A DNA stretch of 33,827 bases from NCBI RefSeq assembly GCF_002287235.1, contig NZ_LMVP01000323.1:1-33827 (forward strand). Reading direction: 5' to 3'. The notes under the pieces were generated by a model that was not told the origin of the DNA, did no database searches, and saw nothing but the letters and a program-made list of their open reading frames with translations. Positions 13,173 to 25,958 of this stretch are shown here, piece by piece; the stretch's first letter is position 1; the number at the start of each line of letters is the position of its first letter. Origin of the DNA: Methanosarcina spelaei. Its GTDB lineage: Archaea; Halobacteriota; Methanosarcinia; Methanosarcinales; Methanosarcinaceae. The position numbers and the translations under genes are program-made.

Positions 13173-13583
13173 TCATTTATGACTGAAGACAATCCCGGAA
13201 CTTAAATCTTCAATCCTATCCGCTATAACGACATTTCCCTGTATCCCGAGCTTTTTTCCCTTATACCATTTTCCATGAATAAGGAGTCGGTCACCTGCTG
13301 AGATTAAGCAGAGGCCATGATAGAGTACGACTACGGTTTTTCCTTCATATTCGATGGAAAATACACTTTCATATTTGCTTCCGATGCCTCCAAAGACAAT
13401 ACCAATAGGTACACCGATAAAAAAAGATGGGCGTTCATAGGTTCTGGAATCAACCGCTGCTTTAGCTTCAACTCCGAATTCCTCATTCTCATTCTTCGTC
13501 TTTTCTTCTTCACTTTTGGTTTTTGAGTCTTCAGAAAGATATATTACCTCAGGATTTGTTTCAAATTCGTTCTTTTTTTGCAT
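13173..13583 (-). CDS. uncharacterised protein with acidic N-terminus
   Basis: The 136-residue product is in two parts. The first 45 residues are highly charged (runs of Glu, Lys, Asn) and probably disordered. Residues about 50-136 contain a glycine-rich segment (FFIGVPIGIVFGGIGSKYESVF) and a beta-rich end (VVVLYHGLCLISAGDRLLIHGKW at about 85-108, then VVIADRIED), which resembles a small beta-barrel such as an OB fold. I cannot assign a family. A TATA-like ATAATATAAAG and a GAGG site lie within 35 nt upstream of the ATG. It is divergent from the HTH regulator. Confidence 0.65.
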   Translation of the reverse strand: MQKKNEFETNPEVIYLSEDSKTKSEEEKTKNENEEFGVEAKAAVDSRTYERPSFFIGVPIGIVFGGIGSKYESVFSIEYEGKTVVVLYHGLCLISAGDRLLIHGKWYKGKKLGIQGNVVIADRIEDLSSGIVFSHK

Positions 13584-13797: not shown

Positions 13798-13834
13798 AGA
13801 AAGTTATATATAGTCAACGTTCAGATGTTTACAT
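13798..13834 (+). promoter_or_regulatory. promoter giving an apparently leaderless regulator mRNA
   Basis: The TATA core TTATATAT is centred at about 13807. The usual archaeal spacing of 25-27 nt places transcription initiation at 13833-13835, that is on the ATG of the regulator gene. No Shine-Dalgarno site is present before that ATG, in agreement with a leaderless message. Confidence 0.6.
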
Positions 13835-14284
13835 ATGTTCCTACCGGCAGGTGAAAAACAGTTTGAATTCTGGGTTCTACGCCGAAACGGGCTCCCAAAT
13901 ATCAATATCGCAAAGCGTTTTGGGGTCTCCAGGCAGGCAGTCTCGCGAGCCCTTCTTAGTATGGATAAACGCATTGAAGAAACCCTGCTTGAAATGGCCA
14001 GAGCAAACAGGATCGAAGTCGAAAAACTGGACTCAAAGAAAGGGATACTCTTCGGAAGATCGGTTCCTTTCAAAGCCAATGCAATAATTTTTGTCTCGAC
14101 AAAACACGGAATGCAGGTTTGGTACGAGCACGAAGGAGAATGCGGATCTTGCGAAAGATACAGGGAATGTATTGAGCTCCTCTGGGATTTTGCAGAAGAG
14201 ATGCAGCTCAAACTCCAGAGTACGGAAGATCCCACAAAGATAGCTGATGAATTATTTGAGAAATTAAAAGAATCGATAGAATAG
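13835..14284 (+). CDS. HTH transcriptional regulator with cysteine cluster
   Basis: The 149-residue product has an N-terminal helix-turn-helix: residues about 10-45, with NINIAKRFGVSRQAVSRALLS as the recognition region (helices split by FGVS). The middle is beta-rich (residues 66-105), and a C-x2-C-x5-C cluster (in ECGSCERYREC, about residues 107-117) could bind a metal or sense redox state. The C-terminus is an amphipathic helix. It resembles archaeal Tfx-like regulators but I do not assign it firmly. The message appears leaderless. The fourteen-gene paralogous array starts 39 nt after its stop on the same strand, so it is likely in, or in control of, that operon. Confidence 0.78.
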   Translation: MFLPAGEKQFEFWVLRRNGLPNINIAKRFGVSRQAVSRALLSMDKRIEETLLEMARANRIEVEKLDSKKGILFGRSVPFKANAIIFVSTKHGMQVWYEHEGECGSCERYRECIELLWDFAEEMQLKLQSTEDPTKIADELFEKLKESIE

Positions 14285-14323: not shown

Positions 14324-14644
14324 ATGAACGTATTCACAAAAAGCATAAAGAGATTAATCGGATGGTGCCCGAACGCAAAAGCACTTGAAACCGGATCTCA
14401 AACTGTTCCTGCAAATTTTGAGATATATGATAAATCTGGAGGAGAAAAGGCCGGAAACAATCCCAGCCGCACGAGAAGAATAGGATTGTCACTTACAAGT
14501 ATAGGCGCTTTTGTTTTAGCATTAACACTTATTCTGGAAATACGAGTAGTTTCAACTAAAGATGAAATCCTGGTATCATCACTTATGACAGGATTAGGAA
14601 CGCTTTTACTTCTAACTGGTGCTGCTCTCTATATTAAAGGATAA
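14324..14644 (+). CDS. array member 1: two-TM miniature of the GWCPN (DUF1673-like) family
   Basis: This 106-residue protein carries the family N-terminal module (IKRLIGWCPNAK at residues 8-19, then NFE and SGGEKAGNN), followed by only two hydrophobic helices (about 53-70 and 80-103). The shared N-terminus is nearly identical to member 2. A GAGGG ribosome site is at 14309-14313. It lacks the four-TM body and the charged C-terminal tail of later members, so it is either a truncated copy or a deliberate short form. I recall the family as Pfam DUF1673, described only from Methanosarcinaceae, with no known function. Confidence 0.75.
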   Translation: MNVFTKSIKRLIGWCPNAKALETGSQTVPANFEIYDKSGGEKAGNNPSRTRRIGLSLTSIGAFVLALTLILEIRVVSTKDEILVSSLMTGLGTLLLLTGAALYIKG

Positions 14645-14739
14645 TAACGATTCCATGTATCAGAATGAGGTTTCTTGATAGAAAAGGATGGCTGTCCACA
14701 ATTCCAGTGGAAATAAGCTGAAAATGGGGAAAGATAACA

Positions 14740-15039
14740 ATGAATGTATTCACAAAAAGTATAAGAAAAATTATGGGATGGTGCCCCAATGCAAAAGCAC
14801 TTGAAACCAGATCTCAAACTGTTCCTGCAAATTTTGAGGCATATGATAAATCTGGAGGAGAAAAAGCCGGAAACAATCTTAGTCGTATGAAAAAAATAGG
14901 ATTGTTACTTGTCAGTATAGGTGCTTTACTTACAGTATTGTCGAATAGATTTTTACCAAATGGAGAAGCAGGATGGATCATATTCTATATTGGAATCCTT
15001 CTATTTGCCATTGGCTTTATTCTTTATACAAAATATTAA
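14740..15039 (+). CDS. array member 2: two-TM miniature of the GWCPN family
   Basis: This 99-residue protein starts MNVFTKSIRKIMGWCPNAK and matches member 1 closely over the first 50 residues and more loosely over the two hydrophobic helices. It has the same GGGGAAAGATAACA leader directly before the ATG as member 1. The 95-nt gap to member 1 contains CCACAATTCCAGTGG (14695-14709), which recurs as a variant before member 3, so the duplicated unit includes non-coding leader. No stop-codon damage is visible. Confidence 0.75.
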   Translation: MNVFTKSIRKIMGWCPNAKALETRSQTVPANFEAYDKSGGEKAGNNLSRMKKIGLLLVSIGALLTVLSNRFLPNGEAGWIIFYIGILLFAIGFILYTKY

Positions 15040-15201
15040 ACTGTATCACAAGTTGACTACTTAGTGTTTTGTCTCTAATAAATAATTTCGTTTTCGGAAA
15101 AAGCATATGAAATAATGAGGTAAAATAGTAGGAGTATTTTAGGCAGAGTATTTGTCCACAATTTCAGTGGGAATAAGCTAAGAATGGAGGAAAGATACCC
15201 T

Positions 15202-15909
15202 ATGAATGTGTTAATTAAGAACATAAGGAAATTGATGGGATGGTGCCCGAACGTAAAAACGCTTGAAACTCAACGTTCCATTAATTCTGGATATTTTGAG
15301 ACGAGTGATCCAGCTAGAGGAAAAGACGCTGGAGATCTTCCTGTTTTACCCACTGGTTGGTGGAACAAACGCCATAACAGGGTATTAATGATGTCCTCAG
15401 GACTGACTCTTATTTCTGTGCTGGGAATTGGATTTCTGGAAGTTCATCTAATAGATAAAATTTTCATTTTTGGGTTAATTATCGGAACCATTTTTAACCT
15501 ATACATTTGCATCTGGAACTGGCATTACCTAGATAATATAAAAAATACAGGCAAGAAAATAAAGAGGAATATTAGATCTTCAAAATGGAGAATTATAAAT
15601 CTAATACTTTCCCTGGTATTATTGTATCTCTTATTTTCACAGTTTAAATGGGGACTCATTTTGTTTTTTGTTTCTGCCTTTTGTTTGATAGCTTTGTTTT
15701 ATTACTTTAATTTCGACTCAACTGGCCTGGTACTGCTTCTTGCCTTTGGTTCATCGCTTGGTTGGAGACATACTATAGGATTTCTATCTGGTTTTTGTCT
15801 GACGGCTTTTCTGTATTACCTTACAGACGTATACTGGGAAAAGAAGAATGGGAAAATGATACTTGTGTACGGACGTAAAATGCCAGAGATCTACATTGTA
15901 AATTCATAA
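15202..15909 (+). CDS. array member 3: six-TM GWCPN-family membrane protein
   Basis: The product has 235 residues. The module IRKLMGWCPNVKTLET is followed by a spacer with YFE and a membrane domain of about six helices, more than the four usual in the array, split by a basic loop (residues about 111-130, rich in Lys and Arg). The end retains the family hallmark YWEKKNGKM but the last tail differs. I choose the ATG at 15202, which lies 11 nt after GGAGG (15186-15190); an in-frame ATG at 15184 would overlap that site. A 162-nt gap separates it from member 2. Confidence 0.78.
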   Translation: MNVLIKNIRKLMGWCPNVKTLETQRSINSGYFETSDPARGKDAGDLPVLPTGWWNKRHNRVLMMSSGLTLISVLGIGFLEVHLIDKIFIFGLIIGTIFNLYICIWNWHYLDNIKNTGKKIKRNIRSSKWRIINLILSLVLLYLLFSQFKWGLILFFVSAFCLIALFYYFNFDSTGLVLLLAFGSSLGWRHTIGFLSGFCLTAFLYYLTDVYWEKKNGKMILVYGRKMPEIYIVNS

Positions 15910-15923
15910 ACGGGGTAACAACT

Positions 15924-16541
15924 ATGACTCTGGAACACATCAAGAAACTGATGGGATGGTGTCCGAATGTAAAAACTCTTGAAGCTGAATCCCGGATTAA
16001 CTCTGATAATTTTGAATTACATGATCAATCTGGAGGAGAAAAGGCCAGAAATCCAGGGATTCCAAGTCGTTTTTCCAGGCTTTTTTCCAGATTTGATATC
16101 CGAATTCTCTTACCAACACTATTCCTAACTCTTATTTACATAAATTTGCTATTTCAAAAAGGTATAAATGCAGAAGCTTTCTTTTTAGGTTTTTCGCTTT
16201 CTCTGCTGATATATCTGCTAGGCTGGAAAAAGCAGATGTATTATTATGATTCCCTAGCAAAAAAGCCTGTTGTTGGCTCTTCCTCAACGAAAATGCTCTT
16301 ATGGGTTTTTTTAGCCCTAATCTTGCTCTTAACTTTGCCTATGGTTTTCTTATCTCAGATACCCTCTTTTCTTAACGCTCGATCGCTGTATTCCTTAGTT
16401 GCTGGAGCCTGGATGTTTATGTGGGGAAGTTATCTTCAGCTAATTTACTGGGAAAGGAAAAACAATATGAAAATTTATGTGAAAAGTGAAAAGGGATTCC
16501 AAAAGATGTATGCTATTGGGGAAAAGGAGGGAGAATTATGA
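15924..16541 (+). CDS. array member 4: four-TM GWCPN-family membrane protein
   Basis: The 205-residue product is the standard array form: N-terminal module IKKLMGWCPNVKTLEA (residues 6-21), a hydrophilic linker with NFE and SGGEKA, four hydrophobic helices (about 56-75, 80-98, 125-148, 156-177), then the cytoplasmic tail YWERKNNMKIYVKSEKGFQ and GEKEGEL. The short cytosolic loop between helix 2 and 3 carries WKKQMYYYDSLAKKP. Its end overlaps member 5 by 4 nt. It is most similar to members 5 and 10. Confidence 0.8.
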   Translation: MTLEHIKKLMGWCPNVKTLEAESRINSDNFELHDQSGGEKARNPGIPSRFSRLFSRFDIRILLPTLFLTLIYINLLFQKGINAEAFFLGFSLSLLIYLLGWKKQMYYYDSLAKKPVVGSSSTKMLLWVFLALILLLTLPMVFLSQIPSFLNARSLYSLVAGAWMFMWGSYLQLIYWERKNNMKIYVKSEKGFQKMYAIGEKEGEL

Positions 16542-17155
16542 ATTGGGAAGCAAAATATATTAGAAAACTAATGGGATGGTGCCCGAATGCAAAAACGATT
16601 GAAACCGGATCTAGAATTAGCCCTGTTAATTTTGAAGCATATGCTCGATCTCGAGGAGAAAAAGCCAGGAGCCCGATGGCTCTGAGCCGCTTTTCCAGGC
16701 TTGATGTCAGACTACTCCTACCAACCCTTTTCTTAACTCCTATTTACATAGTTATGCTATTCCTAAAGGGTGTAAATTCAGAATTCTTCTTTTTGGGCGT
16801 TTTGTTTTCTTTGCTGATAAATTTACTTTTTTGGAAAAATCAGATACGTGAGTATGAGGCTGCGGCAAAAAAACCCACTGTTCGTTATGTCTCTAAAATA
16901 GTACTCTTCTTTGTTTTCTTATCCCTAATTTTATTTTTGAGTTTACCACCTATGGTTTTCTTGTCTTATACGCCTTCTTCTATTAACTCTCATTCAATGT
17001 ATTCTTTTATTGCAGCAACTTGGATTCTTACTATGTGGGGAACCTGTCTTCAGCTATTTTACTGGGAGAAGAAAAATCACATGAAAATTCATATCAAAAA
17101 TGAAAATGGCTTCCAGAAGACATATGCTATTGGGGAAAAGGAGGGAAAGCTATGA
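16538..17155 (+). CDS. array member 5: four-TM GWCPN-family membrane protein
   Basis: The 205-residue product has the same layout and length as member 4, with IRKLMGWCPNAKTIET near the start, a linker with NFE, four helices, a KKPTVRYVSK loop (helix 2-3), and the tail YWEKKNHMKIHIKNENGFQ ending GEKEGKL. The start ATG overlaps the stop of member 4, and the AAGGAGGGAG coding the end of member 4 is its ribosome site. Confidence 0.8.
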   Translation: MNWEAKYIRKLMGWCPNAKTIETGSRISPVNFEAYARSRGEKARSPMALSRFSRLDVRLLLPTLFLTPIYIVMLFLKGVNSEFFFLGVLFSLLINLLFWKNQIREYEAAAKKPTVRYVSKIVLFFVFLSLILFLSLPPMVFLSYTPSSINSHSMYSFIAATWILTMWGTCLQLFYWEKKNHMKIHIKNENGFQKTYAIGEKEGKL

Positions 17156-17751
17156 ATCGGGAATCCAAACTCATAAAAAAGTTGATGGGATGGTGCCCCA
17201 ATGCCAGAGCATCTGAAGCCAGAAGGAATATTGACCTTGAAAATTTTGATTTTAATGTTCCGGATAGAGCAAGGGGAGATAACAGCCGTTTAAAGAACCA
17301 TGGATGGCTCCAGAGAGAAAGTAATCAAATCCTTCTATTTGCTATTTTTTTAACATTTGTTCATTTCCTTATATACAATTACATAGGCCTTCTCCCATCC
17401 CTTTTCGCATCATTACCTCCCCTATTTTATTTTGTATTTCATTGGAATGAGCGGATTCAGCGATTCAACGACATTGTGAAAAAACCTATTGTTCGTTATG
17501 TCTCTAAAGTATCATATCTTTGGGTTTTGATAATCATACTTTTGATTTTTCTGCTTATGCTTCTCTCTTATATGATAAGACAATCTTGGCACTCAGCCTT
17601 ATTCGGACTTTCAATTCTTTGTTTTTTCATGTGGGGTTTTTATTTCCAGCTAATTCACTGGGAGAAGAAAAACTACATGAGAATTTATATTAAAAGTGAA
17701 AATGGCCTCCAAAAGGCATATGCTATTGGGGAAAAGGAGGGAGAAATGTGA
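17152..17751 (+). CDS. array member 6: four-TM GWCPN-family membrane protein
   Basis: The 199-residue product begins with IKKLMGWCPNARASEA and has the linker form NFDFNVPDRARGDN, a subfamily trait shared with members 7, 8 and 9. Its membrane body (starting ESNQILLFAIFLTFVHF) is most like member 8. The loop has KKPIVRYVSK and the tail is YWE-like (HWEKKNYMRIYIKSE) ending GEKEGEM. The start overlaps member 5 by 4 nt. Confidence 0.8.
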   Translation: MNRESKLIKKLMGWCPNARASEARRNIDLENFDFNVPDRARGDNSRLKNHGWLQRESNQILLFAIFLTFVHFLIYNYIGLLPSLFASLPPLFYFVFHWNERIQRFNDIVKKPIVRYVSKVSYLWVLIIILLIFLLMLLSYMIRQSWHSALFGLSILCFFMWGFYFQLIHWEKKNYMRIYIKSENGLQKAYAIGEKEGEM

Positions 17752-18350
17752 GCCTTAAAGTCAAAAACATAAAAAAGTTGATGGGCTGGTGTCCGAATGC
17801 AAGAACATCTGAAACCAGACGGCACATTAACTTTGAAAGTTTTGAATCTGGTATCCCGGATAAAGCAACGGGAGATAACGGGGATCAAAGAAATCCCGGA
17901 TGGTTCCAAAAAGCAAGTACTCGAACTCTTCTCGTTGACATTTTTCTTACGTTTATGTATTTCTCGGTACTTATTCAACTGAGTGTAAACCTGATTTTTT
18001 TACTTGCAGGATTTTTTACTGCCTTGATTTCGTTTATATTTAGCTGGAATGCGAAAATGAGGCTATATGACTCCTTAGAAAAACAACGATTAATTGACAA
18101 TTCAAACCTGAAAAGACTATGCATTATACTCGCTTATGTACTTTTTTCATTTGTAATAGTTTGTCTTTATATAAGTGGCCGTGGACTTGCCCTGCAAGTA
18201 ACACTTTCATTCTTTGGAGGTTATCTTGTTTACTTCTGGCTTGGATATTTCCAAATATTATACTGGGAGCAGAAAAATCATAAAAGAATTTATTTCGACA
18301 AAAGCCACGGAACATGGAAGAAGTCGTACGTAATCCTGGAGAGAAAATAA
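17748..18350 (+). CDS. array member 7: GWCPN-family membrane protein, GTG start
   Basis: The 200-residue product starts with GTG inside an ATGTGA overlap with member 6. The module is IKKLMGWCPNARTSET, and the linker contains RRHINFESFESG, almost the same as in member 9. Four hydrophobic helices follow. The tail, YWEQKNHKRIYFDKSHGTWKKSY, is a different C-terminal type shared only with member 9. It directly abuts member 8 (TAA then ATG). Confidence 0.8.
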   Translation: MSLKVKNIKKLMGWCPNARTSETRRHINFESFESGIPDKATGDNGDQRNPGWFQKASTRTLLVDIFLTFMYFSVLIQLSVNLIFLLAGFFTALISFIFSWNAKMRLYDSLEKQRLIDNSNLKRLCIILAYVLFSFVIVCLYISGRGLALQVTLSFFGGYLVYFWLGYFQILYWEQKNHKRIYFDKSHGTWKKSYVILERK

Positions 18351-18995
18351 ATGTCCAATAAGACTTTTGTTTTTGATCAGATTAAAAAGCTTATGGGGTG
18401 GTGCCCGAATGCAAAAGCACATGAAGCCAGACAGCACGTTCATCTTGAAAATTTTGGTTCCGATATTCCAGACAGAGCAAGAGGAGAAAACGGAAATTTA
18501 AAGGACTCTGGATGGTTCAGGAAAGAAAGTAATCAAATTCTTCTATTTAGTATTTCTTTAACGTTTGTTTATCTCCTGATATATAATCAGATAGGATTAA
18601 ACCTGATCGCTTTACTTGTCGGATTATTAACTTCCCTATTTCATTTTGCACTTTACTGGAATCAGCGGATTCAGCGATACGAAGCCATTGCAAAAAAACC
18701 TATTGTTCGTTATGTCTCTGAAATAAAATCTCTTAGGGGTTTGCTAACCATAATTAGTCTCGTTTTAAGAATAAGTGTGCTTCTTTTTCTTTCTTTTGTT
18801 CTCTTGCCCCGTATACTCGAGTTTGACTTCAAATCAGCGATATCTATTTTTATCTCAGGTCTTTGGTTCCTTATGTGGGGCTTCTATTTCCAGCTAATTT
18901 ACTGGGAAAAGAAAAATCACATGAGAATTTACATTAAAAGTGGAAATGGCTTCCAAAAGTCATATGCTATTAGGGAAAAGGAGGGAGAAAAGTGA
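18351..18995 (+). CDS. array member 8: mosaic GWCPN-family membrane protein
   Basis: The 214-residue product has an N-terminus with the extra TFVFDQIKK segment otherwise seen only in member 10 (VFIFDLIKK), while its linker and membrane body (ESNQILLFSISLTFVYLL, KKPIVRYVSE) and its tail follow member 6. It therefore looks like a recombinant between two subfamilies. Four helices and a tail ending REKEGEK are present. The start directly follows the stop of member 7; its end overlaps member 9 by 4 nt. Confidence 0.8.
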   Translation: MSNKTFVFDQIKKLMGWCPNAKAHEARQHVHLENFGSDIPDRARGENGNLKDSGWFRKESNQILLFSISLTFVYLLIYNQIGLNLIALLVGLLTSLFHFALYWNQRIQRYEAIAKKPIVRYVSEIKSLRGLLTIISLVLRISVLLFLSFVLLPRILEFDFKSAISIFISGLWFLMWGFYFQLIYWEKKNHMRIYIKSGNGFQKSYAIREKEGEK

Positions 18996-19600
18996 GCCTT
19001 AAAGTCGAAAACATAAAAAAAATGATGGGCTGGTGTCCTAATGCCAGAACATCTGAAACCAGACGGCACATTAACTTTGAAAGTTTCGAATCTGGTATCC
19101 TGGATAGAGAAAAGGGAGATGACGGGTATCAAAAAAATCTAGGATGGCTTCAAAAGTTGAGTAATTATACTCTCTTAATTAACACTTTGTTTACACTCGT
19201 GTATATTATAGCGATTAGTCATCTGGGCCTAAAAATAGCCTTTTTCCTCGCCGGATTTTTCATTTCTGTAGCGCTTATTGTCCTTGACTGGAAGAAGCAG
19301 ATGAGAAGATACGATATCCTGGCACAGAAACTCATTTGCGAGAATCCCGGCATGAAAAAAGTATCTCAAATAATTAATCTAATTTTCTATGCAGTTCTTT
19401 TTTATTGGATTTTTTCAGGAAATGTGGCAAGGAATCACTCTATGCAAGTAATCATTTCACTTATGGGTGGTTTCCTGGTTGGAATGTGGCTTGGTTATTT
19501 CCAGCTAACATACTGGCAGAGAAAGAATCACAAGATAATTTATTTAGACAAAAGTTACGGAAAGTGGAAAAAATCATACATAATTCGGGAGAACAAATAA
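18992..19600 (+). CDS. array member 9: GWCPN-family membrane protein, GTG start
   Basis: The 202-residue product is a near relative of member 7: GTG start, MSLKVENIKKMMGWCPNARTSET, linker RRHINFESFESG, and the tail YWQRKNHKIIYLDKSYGKWKKSY. The start overlaps member 8 by 4 nt as member 7 overlaps member 6, so members 6-7 and 8-9 form duplicated pairs. It directly abuts member 10. Confidence 0.8.
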   Translation: MSLKVENIKKMMGWCPNARTSETRRHINFESFESGILDREKGDDGYQKNLGWLQKLSNYTLLINTLFTLVYIIAISHLGLKIAFFLAGFFISVALIVLDWKKQMRRYDILAQKLICENPGMKKVSQIINLIFYAVLFYWIFSGNVARNHSMQVIISLMGGFLVGMWLGYFQLTYWQRKNHKIIYLDKSYGKWKKSYIIRENK

Positions 19601-20230
19601 ATGCCAGCTAAGGTTTTTATTTTTGATCTGATCAAAAAGTTTATGGGTTGGTGCCCGAATGCAAAAGCACTTGAAACCGGATCCAAAGTTAGCTTTGCTA
19701 ATTTTGGAACAAACGGTCAATCGGAAGGAGAAAAGGCAAAAAATCCGACTGTTCCTAGCCAGCATTCCAGGCTTGATATCTATCTTCTCGTGCTACCGAT
19801 TATCTTTACTCCTGTTTATATAAAACTATTTCAAAAAGGTATAAATAAAGAGGCTTTCCTTCTTGGCCTTTTACTTTCTTTACCGATCTATTTGCTCGGC
19901 TGGAAAAAGCAAATGCATCAATACAATGCCGTGAAAAGAAATCCTTTCGTTTCTCCTTCCTTTAGAAAGACACTTGCCTGTGTGGTCTTATTCCTATTTT
20001 TGGGTTTCACTTTGCTCATGGCTTTCTTGCCTTATATCTCGTCTCGTGCAGCTTATCTCTTTAACGATCAGGTATTGTATTCTTTCACTTCAGGAACACT
20101 GATTCTGATGTGGGGTTTCTATTTACAGCTAATTTACTGGGAGAAGAAAAATCATATAAAAATGTATGTGAAAAGAGAAAAGGGACAGCAAAAGCTGTAT
20201 GTCCTTGGAGAAAAGGAGAGAGAGTTATGA
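19601..20230 (+). CDS. array member 10: four-TM GWCPN-family membrane protein
   Basis: The 209-residue product has VFIFDLIKKFMGWCPNAKALET at its start (the first ten residues recall member 8), then a linker with NFGTNGQSEGEKAKN and a four-helix body close to members 4 and 5 (WKKQMHQYNAVKRNP loop). The tail is YWEKKNHIKMYVKREKGQQ. It is the last classical member before the family changes type. Its stop overlaps member 11 by 4 nt (ATGA). Confidence 0.8.
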   Translation: MPAKVFIFDLIKKFMGWCPNAKALETGSKVSFANFGTNGQSEGEKAKNPTVPSQHSRLDIYLLVLPIIFTPVYIKLFQKGINKEAFLLGLLLSLPIYLLGWKKQMHQYNAVKRNPFVSPSFRKTLACVVLFLFLGFTLLMAFLPYISSRAAYLFNDQVLYSFTSGTLILMWGFYLQLIYWEKKNHIKMYVKREKGQQKLYVLGEKEREL

Positions 20231-20955
20231 GCTGGGAATCCAGATGCATAAAAAAGTTGATGGGATGGTGCCCGGTTTGCAAGAATATGGCACCGAAAAT
20301 AGAATCCCCTTTTATCTCTGAAAACTGGATACCAGTTTCAGGAAAAACAGGAAATCTTCCCGAGTTACGAATTTCAAATGTAGTTTTTCCTGCAAACGTA
20401 GCTCTAATCATGACATTTCTTATGATAAGTTTCAACCTGCTTCTGTTCCTGAGGTATCTGTGGGGCATGCCTCTCTTTCTGGCAGTTCTTTTCCTACTCA
20501 GCTTTTCTTGTTATTTGTTAGCTTTCAAAACCTATAACTCAGTAATTCTGGTAGACAAATTGGGAGTACACCTGCAGGCCTTCAGATTCAAAAAGCTAAT
20601 ACCTTACAATAATATCGAAAGTATAACAGTTTCCAGAATTAATAAAAAATCAAAGAAAATATACTTTCTTCTGATTATTTTAGGGTTTGCCATTTGCGGA
20701 TTCGTGGTCTACATGGCTGTAGTAAAAGGAGAATGGAACGGATTTCTGCTATGGATTTTCCTGCTTCCCTTTGTACTTATCACGGAATGGAAGCAAAAAA
20801 CCCGATTTTGGAATGGAAATACACGGCTTCATATAAAAACCAGACACAAAAAATGGTATGAGTGGACCTGGGCCTCTTACAATTCCATGATCACGGACGA
20901 AGCCTCGGCTGCAGAGATGAACTCATATATTAAAAGGCATTGTGAGGGTTTATGA
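20227..20955 (+). CDS. array member 11: WCPxC variant with PH-like domain
   Basis: The 242-residue product begins IKKLMGWCPVCKN, so the signature has two cysteines (C-x2-C). Two helices follow (about 58-100), then a segment VILVDKLGVHLQAFRFKKLIPYNNIESI that reads like the start of a bacterial-type PH domain. Two more helices interrupt it (about 143-183), and a C-terminal part LHIKTRHKKWY ends with an acidic helix (about 225-242). The ATG at 20227 overlaps member 10; the frame is open further upstream inside member 10, but the family start is clear. It is closest to member 12. Confidence 0.78.
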   Translation: MSWESRCIKKLMGWCPVCKNMAPKIESPFISENWIPVSGKTGNLPELRISNVVFPANVALIMTFLMISFNLLLFLRYLWGMPLFLAVLFLLSFSCYLLAFKTYNSVILVDKLGVHLQAFRFKKLIPYNNIESITVSRINKKSKKIYFLLIILGFAICGFVVYMAVVKGEWNGFLLWIFLLPFVLITEWKQKTRFWNGNTRLHIKTRHKKWYEWTWASYNSMITDEASAAEMNSYIKRHCEGL

Positions 20956-20956
20956 A

Positions 20957-21664
20957 ATGGCTTTTACTGAAACTGTCCGGAAATTGATGGGATGGTGTCC
21001 AGCCTGCAAGAAAACGGCTCACCAAACAAAACAGTCCTGTTACTTTGCAAACACAGCCATGATTTCCGGAAAAACAGAAAACACCACTGAATTCCGAACA
21101 GCAAATGTGATTTTCCCCGCAAATACAACTCTTTTTACTTTACTTTTTGTAATATTTTTCAACCTGCTCATGACCCATACAGAAAATATTTCTCTCTTCT
21201 TAGTCGGTCTCTTCCTGCTGAACATTCCTTGTTACTTGCTAATTCTCAAAACCTTCGAGGCAGCAGTTCTGATAGATAAATCAGGAGTACACCTTCAGGC
21301 ATTCAGATTGAAGAAATTTGACATCCCTTATGAAGAAATCGAAAACATAACGTCACACAGGCTTGAAAAGCGTTCAAAGGGAATGTTCCTTCTCCTTGTA
21401 ATTGGAGGAATTGCCTTCTGCGGATTTGCGGTCTACATGGCTGTAGTAAAAGGGGAATTGAAAATACTTTTGCTATTAATCTCACTGTTTCCCCTTATTC
21501 TATTTGCAGCGAGGAAGCAAAAAACCCAATTTGGTAACCTGAATACACAGCTGTATATCAAGACTAAACACAAAAAATGGTACGAACTAAACTCTTACTA
21601 TTCCTTAATTACGGATGAAGTCTCAGCTGTAGAGATAAAATCATCTATTGAAAGGCATTTGTGA
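20957..21664 (+). CDS. array member 12: WCPxC variant with PH-like domain
   Basis: The 235-residue product is a paralogue of member 11: VRKLMGWCPACKK at the start, two helices, the PH-like GVHLQAFRLKKFDIPYEEIENI segment, two helices (VYMAVVKGE shared), and a C-terminal KTKHKKWYE region. I choose the ATG at 20957, 9 nt after GAGG; an in-frame GTG at 20942 would overlap member 11 by 14 nt. The GTGAGGGTTTATGAAATG leader recurs in similar form before members 13 and 14. Confidence 0.78.
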   Translation: MAFTETVRKLMGWCPACKKTAHQTKQSCYFANTAMISGKTENTTEFRTANVIFPANTTLFTLLFVIFFNLLMTHTENISLFLVGLFLLNIPCYLLILKTFEAAVLIDKSGVHLQAFRLKKFDIPYEEIENITSHRLEKRSKGMFLLLVIGGIAFCGFAVYMAVVKGELKILLLLISLFPLILFAARKQKTQFGNLNTQLYIKTKHKKWYELNSYYSLITDEVSAVEIKSSIERHL

Positions 21665-21675
21665 AGGCGTATGAA

Positions 21676-22440
21676 ATGGTTTTTGTGAAATACTTTAAAA
21701 AATTAATGAGATGGCACCCCACAAAAAATTCCCTCCAGAAAGAAAAGCAGGAAGGTTACTTCTCGGGTTTTGAATTCGAAAATAGAAGTACTCAGTTGAG
21801 CTCTTCTCACGAGGATCTTCAGGAAGGCAGAACTCTTAAGGTGCAGGCTAGTCTCTTTGATTGGTGGTGGATGTCAAGGTTATTAATAGTTACTGCTATC
21901 ACATTAATAATTTCCTTGCTTTTATGGACATTTAGTTCTGAAGACTCTTATTTAATCATATTTTCAGGACTTATTATGTTTCTTTTCCCTCTTACATTAT
22001 TTCTTACTCGCTCTAATGCTGCCACAGTAATGCCTGGAGAAATCATAATTAAACAACCTATGCGTAAGCCCATTGTGATCGAAAAAGAAGATATTACGCA
22101 AATTTCGGTAAAAAAGAATGAAGGTTATTCCCTGCGCTGGTTGATTCGGTTATTTTATGTTATTGCAATACCACTTGATTTTATACTAGGAATACCAAGG
22201 AACTTGCAATACATTAAATATATTGAAGCATCCTTTTCGAACTATGTTGATTTCAGTTTATTACTGGGGCATCTTGCAGTAGTAACAATTATCCTTGTGC
22301 TATTTTACAATAGTGAACTCTTAACGCCTTATCAGTGGGCTCTTAAAGTCGCTACGCACTCAAAACTGGAACTTACGTTTTTTACTAATAAACCTGAAGA
22401 GCTTACAAGTTTCCTCAAAAACGAAAGAGACGAAAAATAA
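21676..22440 (+). CDS. array member 13: degenerate signature, PH-like domain
   Basis: The 254-residue product starts with VKYFKKLMRWHPTKN: the helix and tryptophan remain but the cysteine is gone. Helices lie at about 68-85 and 88-110, then a PH-like stretch (PGEIIIKQPMRKPIVIEKEDITQISVKKN), further helices and a C-terminal LTFFTNKPEELTSFL. The ATG at 21676 has an AAGG site 8 nt before it; an alternative GTG at 21661 overlaps member 12. It pairs with member 14. Confidence 0.75.
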   Translation: MVFVKYFKKLMRWHPTKNSLQKEKQEGYFSGFEFENRSTQLSSSHEDLQEGRTLKVQASLFDWWWMSRLLIVTAITLIISLLLWTFSSEDSYLIIFSGLIMFLFPLTLFLTRSNAATVMPGEIIIKQPMRKPIVIEKEDITQISVKKNEGYSLRWLIRLFYVIAIPLDFILGIPRNLQYIKYIEASFSNYVDFSLLLGHLAVVTIILVLFYNSELLTPYQWALKVATHSKLELTFFTNKPEELTSFLKNERDEK

Positions 22441-22462
22441 AAACGTTTTGAAGGCGTATGAA

Positions 22463-23203
22463 ATGGTTTTTGGGAAAAATTTCAGGAAATTGATGGGATG
22501 GTTCACTATGAAGGATTTTATCAAAAAAGAAAGGAGGAAAGGCAGCTATTTTAGTTTCGGATTGGAAAAACTGGGCCAACCGGCACCTTCTCCTGCAAGT
22601 TTGCAGGAAGGTAAGGTTCTGAAAGGACGGGCTCTTTATAGAGGCTACGGAATTGGAAAAATCATCTTTATATCGTTAGTAATTAGTTTAATTTTGGGAT
22701 TAGACAGTCCTTCAGGCTCTTTTTTCGATCTTTTTTCTTCCTTAATCCTATATCTTGCTCTTTTGGTCTTAATCCTTTATAATCGTACTACTGTGAGGTT
22801 GACTCCTGAAAAAATAATTATTCACAGGCATCTGTTCAGGTCTCTCGTGTTAAGGAAAGAGGATATCGTGCAGATCACTATATCGAAGAACAAAGGCCGT
22901 TCCCTGCGTTGGCCACTACGTTTGTTAGCCCTTGTTACCTTTGCAATTCAACTGCCTCATATCGTAGAAAGTATAACCAGGGATTTGCAAATGGAAGCAG
23001 CTCAAGTTTTCATAAAACTAAGCTCAGTTATGGTAGATTTCTGGATAGTTGCATATGTCCTTGTCATTTATTTTTATATCTTCAAATTCACAGTGCCCTA
23101 TCGACAGATTCTTAAAATTACTACACGTTCAAACTTAAATTTGGAATTCTACACTCAAAAACCGGAAGAAATTATGGCGACCTTCAAAAATAAGAGTGAG
23201 TAG
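22463..23203 (+). CDS. array member 14: cysteine-less, PH-like domain
   Basis: The 246-residue product is the last of the array. The signature is reduced to FRKLMGWFTMKD, without Cys or Pro. The body matches member 13: linker with SLQEGKVLKG, two helices, LTPEKIIIHRHLFRSLVLRKEDIVQITISKN, helices, and LEFYTQKPEEIMATF at the end. The leader TTGAAGGCGTATGAA before the ATG copies that of member 13. It ends convergently, 90 nt from the first DUF5788-like gene. Confidence 0.75.
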   Translation: MVFGKNFRKLMGWFTMKDFIKKERRKGSYFSFGLEKLGQPAPSPASLQEGKVLKGRALYRGYGIGKIIFISLVISLILGLDSPSGSFFDLFSSLILYLALLVLILYNRTTVRLTPEKIIIHRHLFRSLVLRKEDIVQITISKNKGRSLRWPLRLLALVTFAIQLPHIVESITRDLQMEAAQVFIKLSSVMVDFWIVAYVLVIYFYIFKFTVPYRQILKITTRSNLNLEFYTQKPEEIMATFKNKSE

Positions 23204-23293: not shown

Positions 23294-23773
23294 CTACTTT
23301 AAACTTTTAATAAGCTCCTGAAAACGCTTTTCGTCAACTACCTTCTGAGTATTGAGCATCCGCTTAAACTCGTCGACGCTTTTTTCCCCACCTTTCCCCT
23401 CAAGTTTGTCTTTTAATTCCATTGAGGCCCGCAAAAGCCCAGTTGCTTCTTCATAAAGGGCTTCAGCCTCTGCTTTTGTAAGTTCTTCCGTCTCCAGCAG
23501 TTCTTCATCTGCTTTTGACTTTTCATTCAATTTTGGGATAAGAGCCCTGATTTCGGCAGTTTTATCCGTATCCAGTGATTCTTTCTCGCTCAGTCCTCTA
23601 ACCATGTCCCTGAGTTTGTACTCGCACCCATCGATCTCTACACTTTCAGGGATTTTCTTTCCTGCCCAGGCAAAATCACTCCTGAGGCTCCAGAGAAGCT
23701 TATTGCGCTCTTCGTAACCAAGATATTCTTCGTCTGCCTCTTCCGTGTCATTATCTCTTTTTATCATGAGCAA
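23294..23773 (-). CDS. DUF5788-like protein, copy A
   Basis: The 159-residue product is acidic and helical. Its start region EERNKLLWSLRSDFAWAGKKIPESVEIDG with the core GKKIPESVEIDG at about residues 38-49 resembles the small archaeal DUF5788 proteins as I recall them from haloarchaea. The rest is predicted to be coiled helices with LTKAEAEALYEEATGLLRA near 104-122. It is a clear paralogue of the gene at 25479-25958, and the two bracket pyrB-pyrI on the same strand. Function is unknown. An inverted repeat at 23815-23848 overlaps its likely promoter. Confidence 0.75.
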   Translation of the reverse strand: MLMIKRDNDTEEADEEYLGYEERNKLLWSLRSDFAWAGKKIPESVEIDGCEYKLRDMVRGLSEKESLDTDKTAEIRALIPKLNEKSKADEELLETEELTKAEAEALYEEATGLLRASMELKDKLEGKGGEKSVDEFKRMLNTQKVVDEKRFQELIKSLK

Positions 23774-25478: not shown

Positions 25479-25958
25479 TTACTTAGACACTTTTTTGATA
25501 AATTCGAGCCAGAGCTTTGCGTCTCTAATCCTCTGATTAGCAAACTGTTCCTGAAAGCGCTTTGTGTTTTGTTTGAAGGTTCCGCTCTCAATATCCTTCA
25601 GATCTGCTATTGCACGCAATAAGCCTGCAGTCTCATGATAGAGCTTTTTTGATTCTTCCGATGTAAGGGCCTTCCCTTCGAGATCTTTTTCGTCCTTCAT
25701 TTCCTTCGCTGAAAGAATTTCAATGTATTTCTCTATCCTGGATTTCTCAGCTTCACTGAGTTCATCTTTTTGAATCAATTCCCATACATAATTGTGCAGA
25801 GGGTAAGTTTCTCCCTCAAACTCAACATAATCCGGGATATATTGACCAACCCAGAAAAGGCGAGAATGCAGAGCCGAAAGTAACTGCCTGCGTTCCTCAT
25901 CTGTGATACAATTCCCAGAAGCGTTCTTCTCATATGTTCCAGGGTTATTTTCCATCAT
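25479..25958 (-). CDS. DUF5788-like protein, copy B
   Basis: The 159-residue product aligns with copy A along most of its length: EERRQLLSALHSRLFWVGQYIPDYVEFEG near the start and LTSEESKKLYHETAGLLRAI in the second half. Both are helical, charged and of the same size. The start is the first of two adjacent ATG codons (25958 or 25955) after a GGGGGGAG ribosome site, which is unusually strong for this window. It lies upstream of pyrB on the same strand with 133 nt between. Function is unknown. Confidence 0.75.
   Translation of the reverse strand: MMENNPGTYEKNASGNCITDEERRQLLSALHSRLFWVGQYIPDYVEFEGETYPLHNYVWELIQKDELSEAEKSRIEKYIEILSAKEMKDEKDLEGKALTSEESKKLYHETAGLLRAIADLKDIESGTFKQNTKRFQEQFANQRIRDAKLWLEFIKKVSK

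Follow-up and report, generated by a model that had tools for sequence, protein, structure and literature searches.

Fourteen tagged membrane proteins of Methanosarcina spelaei as the candidate membrane half of a switch autoregulated by an upstream helix-turn-helix protein

Why is a short N-terminal tag retained on a whole row of archaeal membrane proteins while the bodies behind it diverge, and what might this tag bind? The question is raised by contig NZ_LMVP01000323.1 of Methanosarcina spelaei, analysed as one stretch of 33,827 nucleotides (the window), in which the open reading frames (ORFs) place fourteen consecutive plus-strand genes at 14324-23203. An earlier note on this DNA had delimited the same array and had suggested that a constant tag on variable bodies serves a common cytoplasmic partner; both points are well borne out, and the partner, overlooked in that note, is likely to be the helix-turn-helix (HTH) regulator encoded immediately upstream. 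This assignment is drawn from the linkage of regulator and tag across the phylum, from the unrelated bodies that share the tag, and from a regulator paralogue with a tag variant of its own. With rather more confidence than doubt, the fourteen genes are read here as the membrane-bound part of a single autoregulated switch, in which the tag would dock the upstream HTH autorepressor and so relieve the operon of repression on an envelope signal.

The regulator gene (13835..14284, plus strand) lies 39 bases upstream of array gene 1 and encodes 149 amino acids, an N-terminal HTH followed by a C-terminal domain with the motif H99-x3-C103-x2-C106-x5-C112, whose three cysteines are invariant in 115 alignment rows and whose histidine is conserved in 99%. 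At the loci inspected in Methanosarcina and its near relatives, the gene is found directly 5' of the array, and the operon starts at the regulator, outside 14324-23203. The Pfam scan returned neither an ArsR nor a LytTR match for this protein, and TIGR00721 (Tfx) reached 18.5 bits (E 0.0015), far under its cut-off of 60.25 bits; judged by these profiles, the regulator stands outside the ArsR, the LytTR and, by cut-off, the Tfx families. Homologues of approximately 54-74% identity are present in other families of the order, the class and the phylum, the named genomes being those of Methanococcoides, Methanolobus, Methanoperedens, ANME-2 and ANME-3 (anaerobic methanotrophic archaea), Methanoculleus, Methanoregula, Methanolinea and Methanospirillum.

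Regulator and tagged proteins travel together. Among 112 Methanosarcinaceae genomes, 44 have both the regulator and DUF1673, the Pfam family (PF07895) of the array proteins, and 68 have neither, the two sets being identical. When the DNA was searched for [KR]-x-[LMI..]-GWCP independently of the DUF1673 profile, the pattern turned up in 43 of the 44 regulator-positive versus 1 of the 68 regulator-negative genomes, and this single match is a KDLGWCP inside another gene, which also occurs in G006 and G009. Across the phylum, a tagged ORF lies within 1.5 kb downstream of 114 of 119 regulator hits (114 of 117 close homologues; the set of 119 holds one place twice, L138 and L174), mostly overlapping the regulator by 4 bp, and two of the five tag-less hits are homologues of 37-39% identity. 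Another 40 regulator loci of different DNA gave the same picture, with the tag in 37 of the 38 that have enough sequence. The family assignment made earlier stands, but DUF1673 is not restricted to Methanosarcina as had been supposed: of 238 genomes in the class, 74 encode it, and these belong to 15 genera; on other bodies, the tag extends to genomes of Methanoculleus, Methanoregula, Methanolinea and Methanoperedens. At many loci the regulator is followed by just one tagged protein.

The TATA box of the operon promoter, TTATATATA, was read directly at 13804..13812 (plus strand), and between it and the start codon lies the operator palindrome GTCAACGTTCAGATGTTTAC (13813..13832, plus strand). 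The operator consensus GTCAACRT-N4-AYGTTGAC (degenerate dyad GTMAACRT-N4-AYGTTKAC) is met with at 117 of the 119 regulator loci, with the ATG 2 nt past the palindrome in 111 and a TATA-like sequence no more than 16 nt upstream of it in 108 of the 117; the palindrome is also present at 38 of the 40 further loci. Being situated past the TATA box, where a leaderless transcript would be expected to start, the palindrome has the position of a repressor-type site. In the own genome, the site at 13813-13832 is the sole perfect match. A regulon wider than the own operon was considered and rejected, since looser matches are no commoner than those of a reversed-pattern control. Most likely, then, the regulator is predicted to repress its own operon and little else.

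The position of the operator also bears on a different account of the regulator, namely that it is an activator or a redox or metal sensor with its Cys3His set, that the membrane proteins act as resting-state inhibitors, and that a signal frees it for the promoter, as in LytTR systems. The invariant H-x3-C-x2-C-x5-C and the identical operon order of LytTR systems speak for it; a palindrome lying past the TATA box and ahead of the start codon, however, fits the block set by an archaeal repressor and would be unexpected for an activator, and we regard this account as doubtful.

Across the array the tag reads I-[KR]-K-[LMI]-M-G-W-C-P, a peptide of this kind being MNVFTKSIRKLMGWCPNAK. Mean pairwise identity among the copies amounts to 76% in its 9-residue core versus 24% in the bodies, and when 62 relatives of gene 13 are aligned, the tag residues G, W, C and P form the only nearly invariant columns. 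All four bases are used at the GGN codon of the tag among the copies. Synonymous sites thus vary, which indicates that the tag is conserved as protein and not through recent gene conversion; a tag that acts as a DNA element, or is upheld by conversion at the DNA level, was ruled out on the same ground. The exact pattern occurs 11 times in the own genome, every time inside the array.

Behind this constant tag stand bodies that are unrelated to each other and fall into 15 clusters. In Methanomicrobiales loci, one tagged body matches SdpI (PF13630, 2.3e-15) and DUF1648 (PF07853, 3.5e-13) in Pfam; the tagged body at L156 scores 56.9 bits for SdpI and 49.4 bits for DUF1648, both above the cut-offs, and among the window proteins scanned none reaches the cut-off of either family. 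Other tagged bodies match GPDPase_memb (1.4e-7) together with DUF6159 (1.8e-6), Yip1 (4e-16), or Polysacc_synt_3/MurJ (1e-20). Genomes of family f7, probably Methanotrichaceae, encode a tagged protein with a single transmembrane segment whose 'WWDYADG' ectodomain shows relationship to STT3 (1.8e-5), and in other genomes a tagged protein with five transmembrane segments carries an AglB-like domain (3.7e-5). The widest mix per operon was observed in a Methanoperedens-type (ANME-2d) locus, L108:5204-12799, where nine tagged genes with several different bodies share one regulator. Over its opening 20-35 positions, the DUF1673 model also matches proteins with a Yip1 or an otherwise unrelated body. 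Since the tag is found on unrelated bodies, DUF1673 as defined by Pfam fuses, by this comparison of sequences, a mobile tag with one of its bodies; annotation with the PF07895 model can accordingly mislabel Yip1-type and other tagged proteins.

In a regulator paralogue of the Methanomicrobiales (regulator 2), recognition helix, operator and tag have all changed. Its recognition helix is GITRQGVSQAL versus GISRQAVSRAL in regulator 1, its operator is GTAAATGT-N4-ACATTTAC, and its tag is GLC[RP]K, compared with GWCP[N] for regulator 1. Within one body family of six transmembrane segments, 14 of 14 GLC members lie behind regulator 2 and 9 of 9 GWC members behind regulator 1, and this pairing holds without exception for all 353 tagged genes for which a regulator was assigned; in these sequences, the tag goes with the regulator rather than with the body. 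In the cysteine loop of the regulator, Arg108 is replaced by Glu both in the regulator 2 paralogue and in family f7, and a basic residue directly follows the C-P position of the tag in 20 of 20 first genes with Glu108 and in 1 of 94 otherwise. The covariation of cysteine loop and tag, together with the GLC/GWC split, hints at a contact between regulator and tag.

The same observations bear on the proposal that the tag is a targeting or anchoring signal, either an amphipathic helix for an insertase or a site of cysteine modification, which binds no regulator, the regulator merely controlling the operon. The tag forms a basic, amphipathic N-terminus that has a single conserved cysteine, as such a signal might, and an autoregulated operon by itself would account for linkage and operator. 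A general signal would be expected, however, also away from the regulator and in regulator-less genomes, where the tag is absent, and its shift in step with the regulator paralogue while the body family remains constant would be unexpected; we consider a pure targeting function unlikely.

Further copies of the regulator were observed outside the main loci. In two Methanosarcina genomes (G079, G077) a second copy occupies a second chromosomal site (L121:7600-9600, L122:4500-6950), where it has a related palindrome, GTCAATTT-N4-ACGTTTAC, and is followed by a MurJ/Polysacc_synt-like flippase with the tag KKLMGWCPN. Two distant homologues of 37-39% identity (L151:876-1292 and the L177:1875 region, in G401 and G480) have no tag downstream; the one at L151 retains the palindrome GTAAACCGAAATAGGTTTAC, the one at L177 precedes a transmembrane protein with a PH-like stretch, and both may represent the system before the tag arose. 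In the own genome, an orphan DUF1673 gene adjoins a short regulator remnant (G000:C201:29237-30116), and a DUF1673 pseudogene with a stop resides on another contig (G000:C8:3895-4542); these are decayed copies of the unit of regulator and tagged protein.

Structure prediction was turned to the same contact. The AlphaFold2 (AF2) input consisted of the regulator, the natural intergenic stretch with its two stop codons read as residues, and the tag. The regulator part folded well into an HTH, four strands and two helices; the tag region was otherwise disordered, and only I-G-W-C appeared as a strand, with a pLDDT (predicted local distance difference test) of approximately 56 versus approximately 30 around it, a weak hint that the tag could add as a strand to the regulator. 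Foldseek gave as best matches of the regulator model the EnfR chains 8HNP/8HNO (prob 0.82, E 0.26, TM-score 0.36 by target); at these values the regulator may or may not share the 'eighth note' fold of EnfR.

Several points weigh against docking of the tag to the regulator and should be set beside the evidence for it. The covariation of position 108 with the tag amounts to two changes on the regulator tree, so that the count carries no significance, and the GLC/GWC split in the family of six transmembrane segments likewise reduces to two changes on the tree; with two changes each, the covariations are good hints of contact and no statistical proof. The AF2 contact is of low confidence and was obtained by reading through two stop codons. 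Three close regulators (L107, L111, L136) have no tagged gene in the next 1.5 kb, and the last two array genes carry degraded tags, RWHP in gene 13 and GWFT in gene 14. Finally, the switch gives no account of why one operon should need fourteen members.

As to the array itself, in which all genes lie on the plus strand, PF07895 matches 14 of 14 proteins, 13 of them above the curated gathering cut-off of 30.4 bits, with gene 11 at 23.7 bits. Genes 1 (14324..14644, IGWCPN) and 2 (14740..15039) encode tagged short proteins with two transmembrane segments, gene 2 being a partial duplicate of gene 1 (87% over 201 bp). Gene 3 (15202..15909, alternative start 15184) is a DUF1673 protein with MGWCPN, and DUF1673 bodies with multiple transmembrane segments follow in genes 4 (15924..16541, MGWCPN), 5 (16538..17155, with an ATGA overlap with gene 4), 6 (17152..17751), 7 (17748..18350, GTG start), 8 (18351..18995), 9 (18992..19600, GTG start) and 10 (19601..20230). 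Gene 11 (20227..20955, MGWCPV, body cluster 2) and gene 12 (20957..21664, MGWCPA, alternative GTG start 20942) both have four transmembrane segments and a probable split PH-like domain, while gene 13 (21676..22440, alternative start 21661) and its homologue gene 14 (22463..23203, alternative TTG start 22448) bear the variant tags MRWHP and MGWFT. The AF2 model of gene 13 runs through a transmembrane hairpin, four strands, a second transmembrane hairpin, two strands and a helix, and its top Foldseek matches are mainly PH folds (prob 0.8-0.99, at E values of at least 0.07 and hence non-significant). Given this model and the PH folds at the head of the list, genes 11-14 probably encode PH-like domains interrupted by a transmembrane hairpin; the Pfam scan gave no bPH match.

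Some details of the earlier note need revision in this light. A K-x-M-G-W-C-P-N motif or variant had been ascribed to all fourteen proteins; K/R-x-[M/I]-G-W-C-P is indeed present in genes 1-12, the final N being confined to genes 1-10, and genes 13 and 14 keep only the degraded forms given above. Of the two, four or six helices proposed, hydropathy returns two segments each for genes 1-2 and approximately 3-5 for the remainder, and a clear member with six segments finds no support. One coupled operon fits genes 3-14, with intergenic distances of -4 to +19 bases, less so the gaps of 95 bases between genes 1 and 2 and of 162 bases between genes 2 and 3, and its start has to be moved to the regulator; the overlaps make co-transcription of the array genes likely.

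Co-transcription is also the point in favour of the notion that the fourteen products form one hetero-oligomeric membrane complex linked by their tags, in line with the multi-subunit assembly suggested before. The array size differs widely among genomes, however, many loci have a single tagged protein behind the regulator, and the bodies are unrelated between lineages; such a complex is highly improbable, and the suggestion lost its footing. A relic array had likewise been envisaged as the outcome that would undo the proposal. The operon is present in relatives, and the ratio of nonsynonymous to synonymous substitution rates (dN/dS) of orthologous pairs from related genomes is mostly 0.15-0.5, with few pairs up to 0.8, which indicates purifying selection, and the reading as relic or pseudogenes was therefore dropped.

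The arrays expand, turn over and diverge, and this behaviour, together with SdpI, an immunity-type body, among the tagged ones and with the listing of the family in fast-evolving 'dark matter' islands (PMC4158269), suggests another possibility: the array might be a set of immunity proteins that protect from membrane-active peptides or from other toxins acting on the membrane, jointly induced via the upstream repressor, with the tag being secondary. A search of PADLOC-DB gave no match of weight for known anti-phage defence (best E 0.0046 over a stretch of 35 amino acids), no toxin gene was seen next to the array, and bodies that resemble STT3/AglB or a flippase, or that are of the Yip1 type, are atypical of immunity proteins. 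Immunity as the chief role is a tentative option, to which we assign a minor share of our confidence, and it is compatible with the switch rather than exclusive of it. Of the roles proposed earlier, envelope sensing can be reasoned from the bodies (SdpI, Yip1, flippase, STT3/AglB), and defence has no sign in PADLOC.

As to the surroundings of the array, wherever both flanks are present in the Methanosarcina and near-relative loci inspected, the locus lies between dapAB and pyrBI. By the array end, two paralogous acidic proteins (approximately 36% identical; 23294-23773 and 25479-25958, minus strand) flank pyrI/pyrB and recur in nearly all Methanosarcina loci, and a small divergent gene beside the regulator (13173-13583, minus strand) recurs there in many Methanosarcina genomes. 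An Rfam scan yielded no RNA element match within or before the array.

How might the parts work together? From the position of the operator, the HTH regulator would bind the palindrome that separates TATA box and start codon, thereby repressing its own operon, which yields the regulator together with one to fourteen tagged membrane proteins. The cytoplasmic tag, an amphipathic basic helix with G-W-C-P, would serve as docking peptide for the cysteine-rich C-terminal domain of the regulator. Depending on the body, a change in the envelope, be it lipid, peptide toxin or the state of surface glycans, might be sensed; the sensing body would then capture the regulator at the membrane and repression would be lifted, with the consequence that more tagged proteins are made, sensors and possibly also effectors or immunity proteins. 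Operon layout, operator, the pairing across the phylum, the sharing of one tag by unrelated bodies and the joint change in the paralogue are read from the sequences; docking, repression with its relief, and the signals are what we infer from this genomic pattern. The array of fourteen would, on these terms, supply a single switch with a range of sensors or sensor-effectors, and the retention of a short tag on diverging bodies would find its explanation.

Beyond this locus, the system could represent a class of transmembrane signalling in archaea that spans the phylum and has so far gone undescribed, with one autorepressor family, many unrelated sensors whose bodies are of lipid, flippase, glycosylation and peptide-toxin type, and an interchangeable tag, and possibly with a metal site completed by the Cys3His set of the regulator and the cysteine of the tag; bodies would be swapped behind the tag, and duplicated regulators with private tag and operator codes would provide several insulated channels per cell. 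On this wider proposal our confidence and our reservations are evenly balanced. Few archaeal routes from a membrane signal to a promoter have been described, and DUF1673, with hundreds of members of unknown function, would gain a concrete role, a partner protein and a DNA site. If the proposal is true, a sequence search with the tag suffices to find envelope sensors in methanogens and ANME archaea, and the GWC/GLC pairs exemplify insulated signalling channels that arose in nature by joint duplication of regulator, operator and tag.

With regard to known systems, the members of the array belong to the family recorded as PF07895, arCOG06827 and SC.00027. It has been described as 'membrane protein expansion in Methanosarcina, MGWCP motif, DUF1673' (arCOG06827, PMC4158269) and as covered by supercluster SC.00027 (PMC4390880), in both cases without function, and neither a partner nor an operator is stated in those passages. 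The operon MM2440-2441 of M. mazei was considered as the present one and rejected, being a different, ArsR-type operon. A likeness is evident to SdpR/SdpI of Bacillus subtilis, a two-part operon with the HTH regulator first and a polytopic membrane protein second; it extends to autorepression, expected here from the operator, and to the SdpI/DUF1648 body among the tagged bodies of Methanomicrobiales loci. SdpR, however, is an ArsR-family repressor, in contrast to the Tfx-like HTH found here; SdpI is not known to carry a GWCP tag, and here one candidate docking tag is attached to numerous unrelated bodies, with as many as fourteen genes per array. In B. subtilis, SdpI sequesters the autorepressor SdpR (PMC1626106). 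The Tfx-family archaeal repressor EnfR (8HNO, 8HNP) is similar in its N-terminal HTH (the TIGR00721 score given above) and in length, and represses via a pseudo-palindrome near the start codon, its authors having suggested that an antirepressor is needed (PMC10570040); the present regulator differs in its C-terminal domain with the invariant Cys3His and in falling under the Tfx cut-off. In the LytTR Regulatory Systems (HdrRM, BrsRM), which occur in bacteria and some archaea, a regulator gene is followed by that of its controlling membrane protein, an inhibitor, and the pair is autoregulated (PMC6193735). Those systems employ a DNA-binding domain of the LytTR type and positive feedback, with direct repeats located 5' of -35 (PMC6193735), whereas an HTH, an inverted repeat past the TATA box and ahead of the start codon, and a common peptide tag are found here. 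The mode of action proposed by analogy is thus like that of SdpI/SdpR and, with other parts and opposite sign, like that of the LytTR systems.

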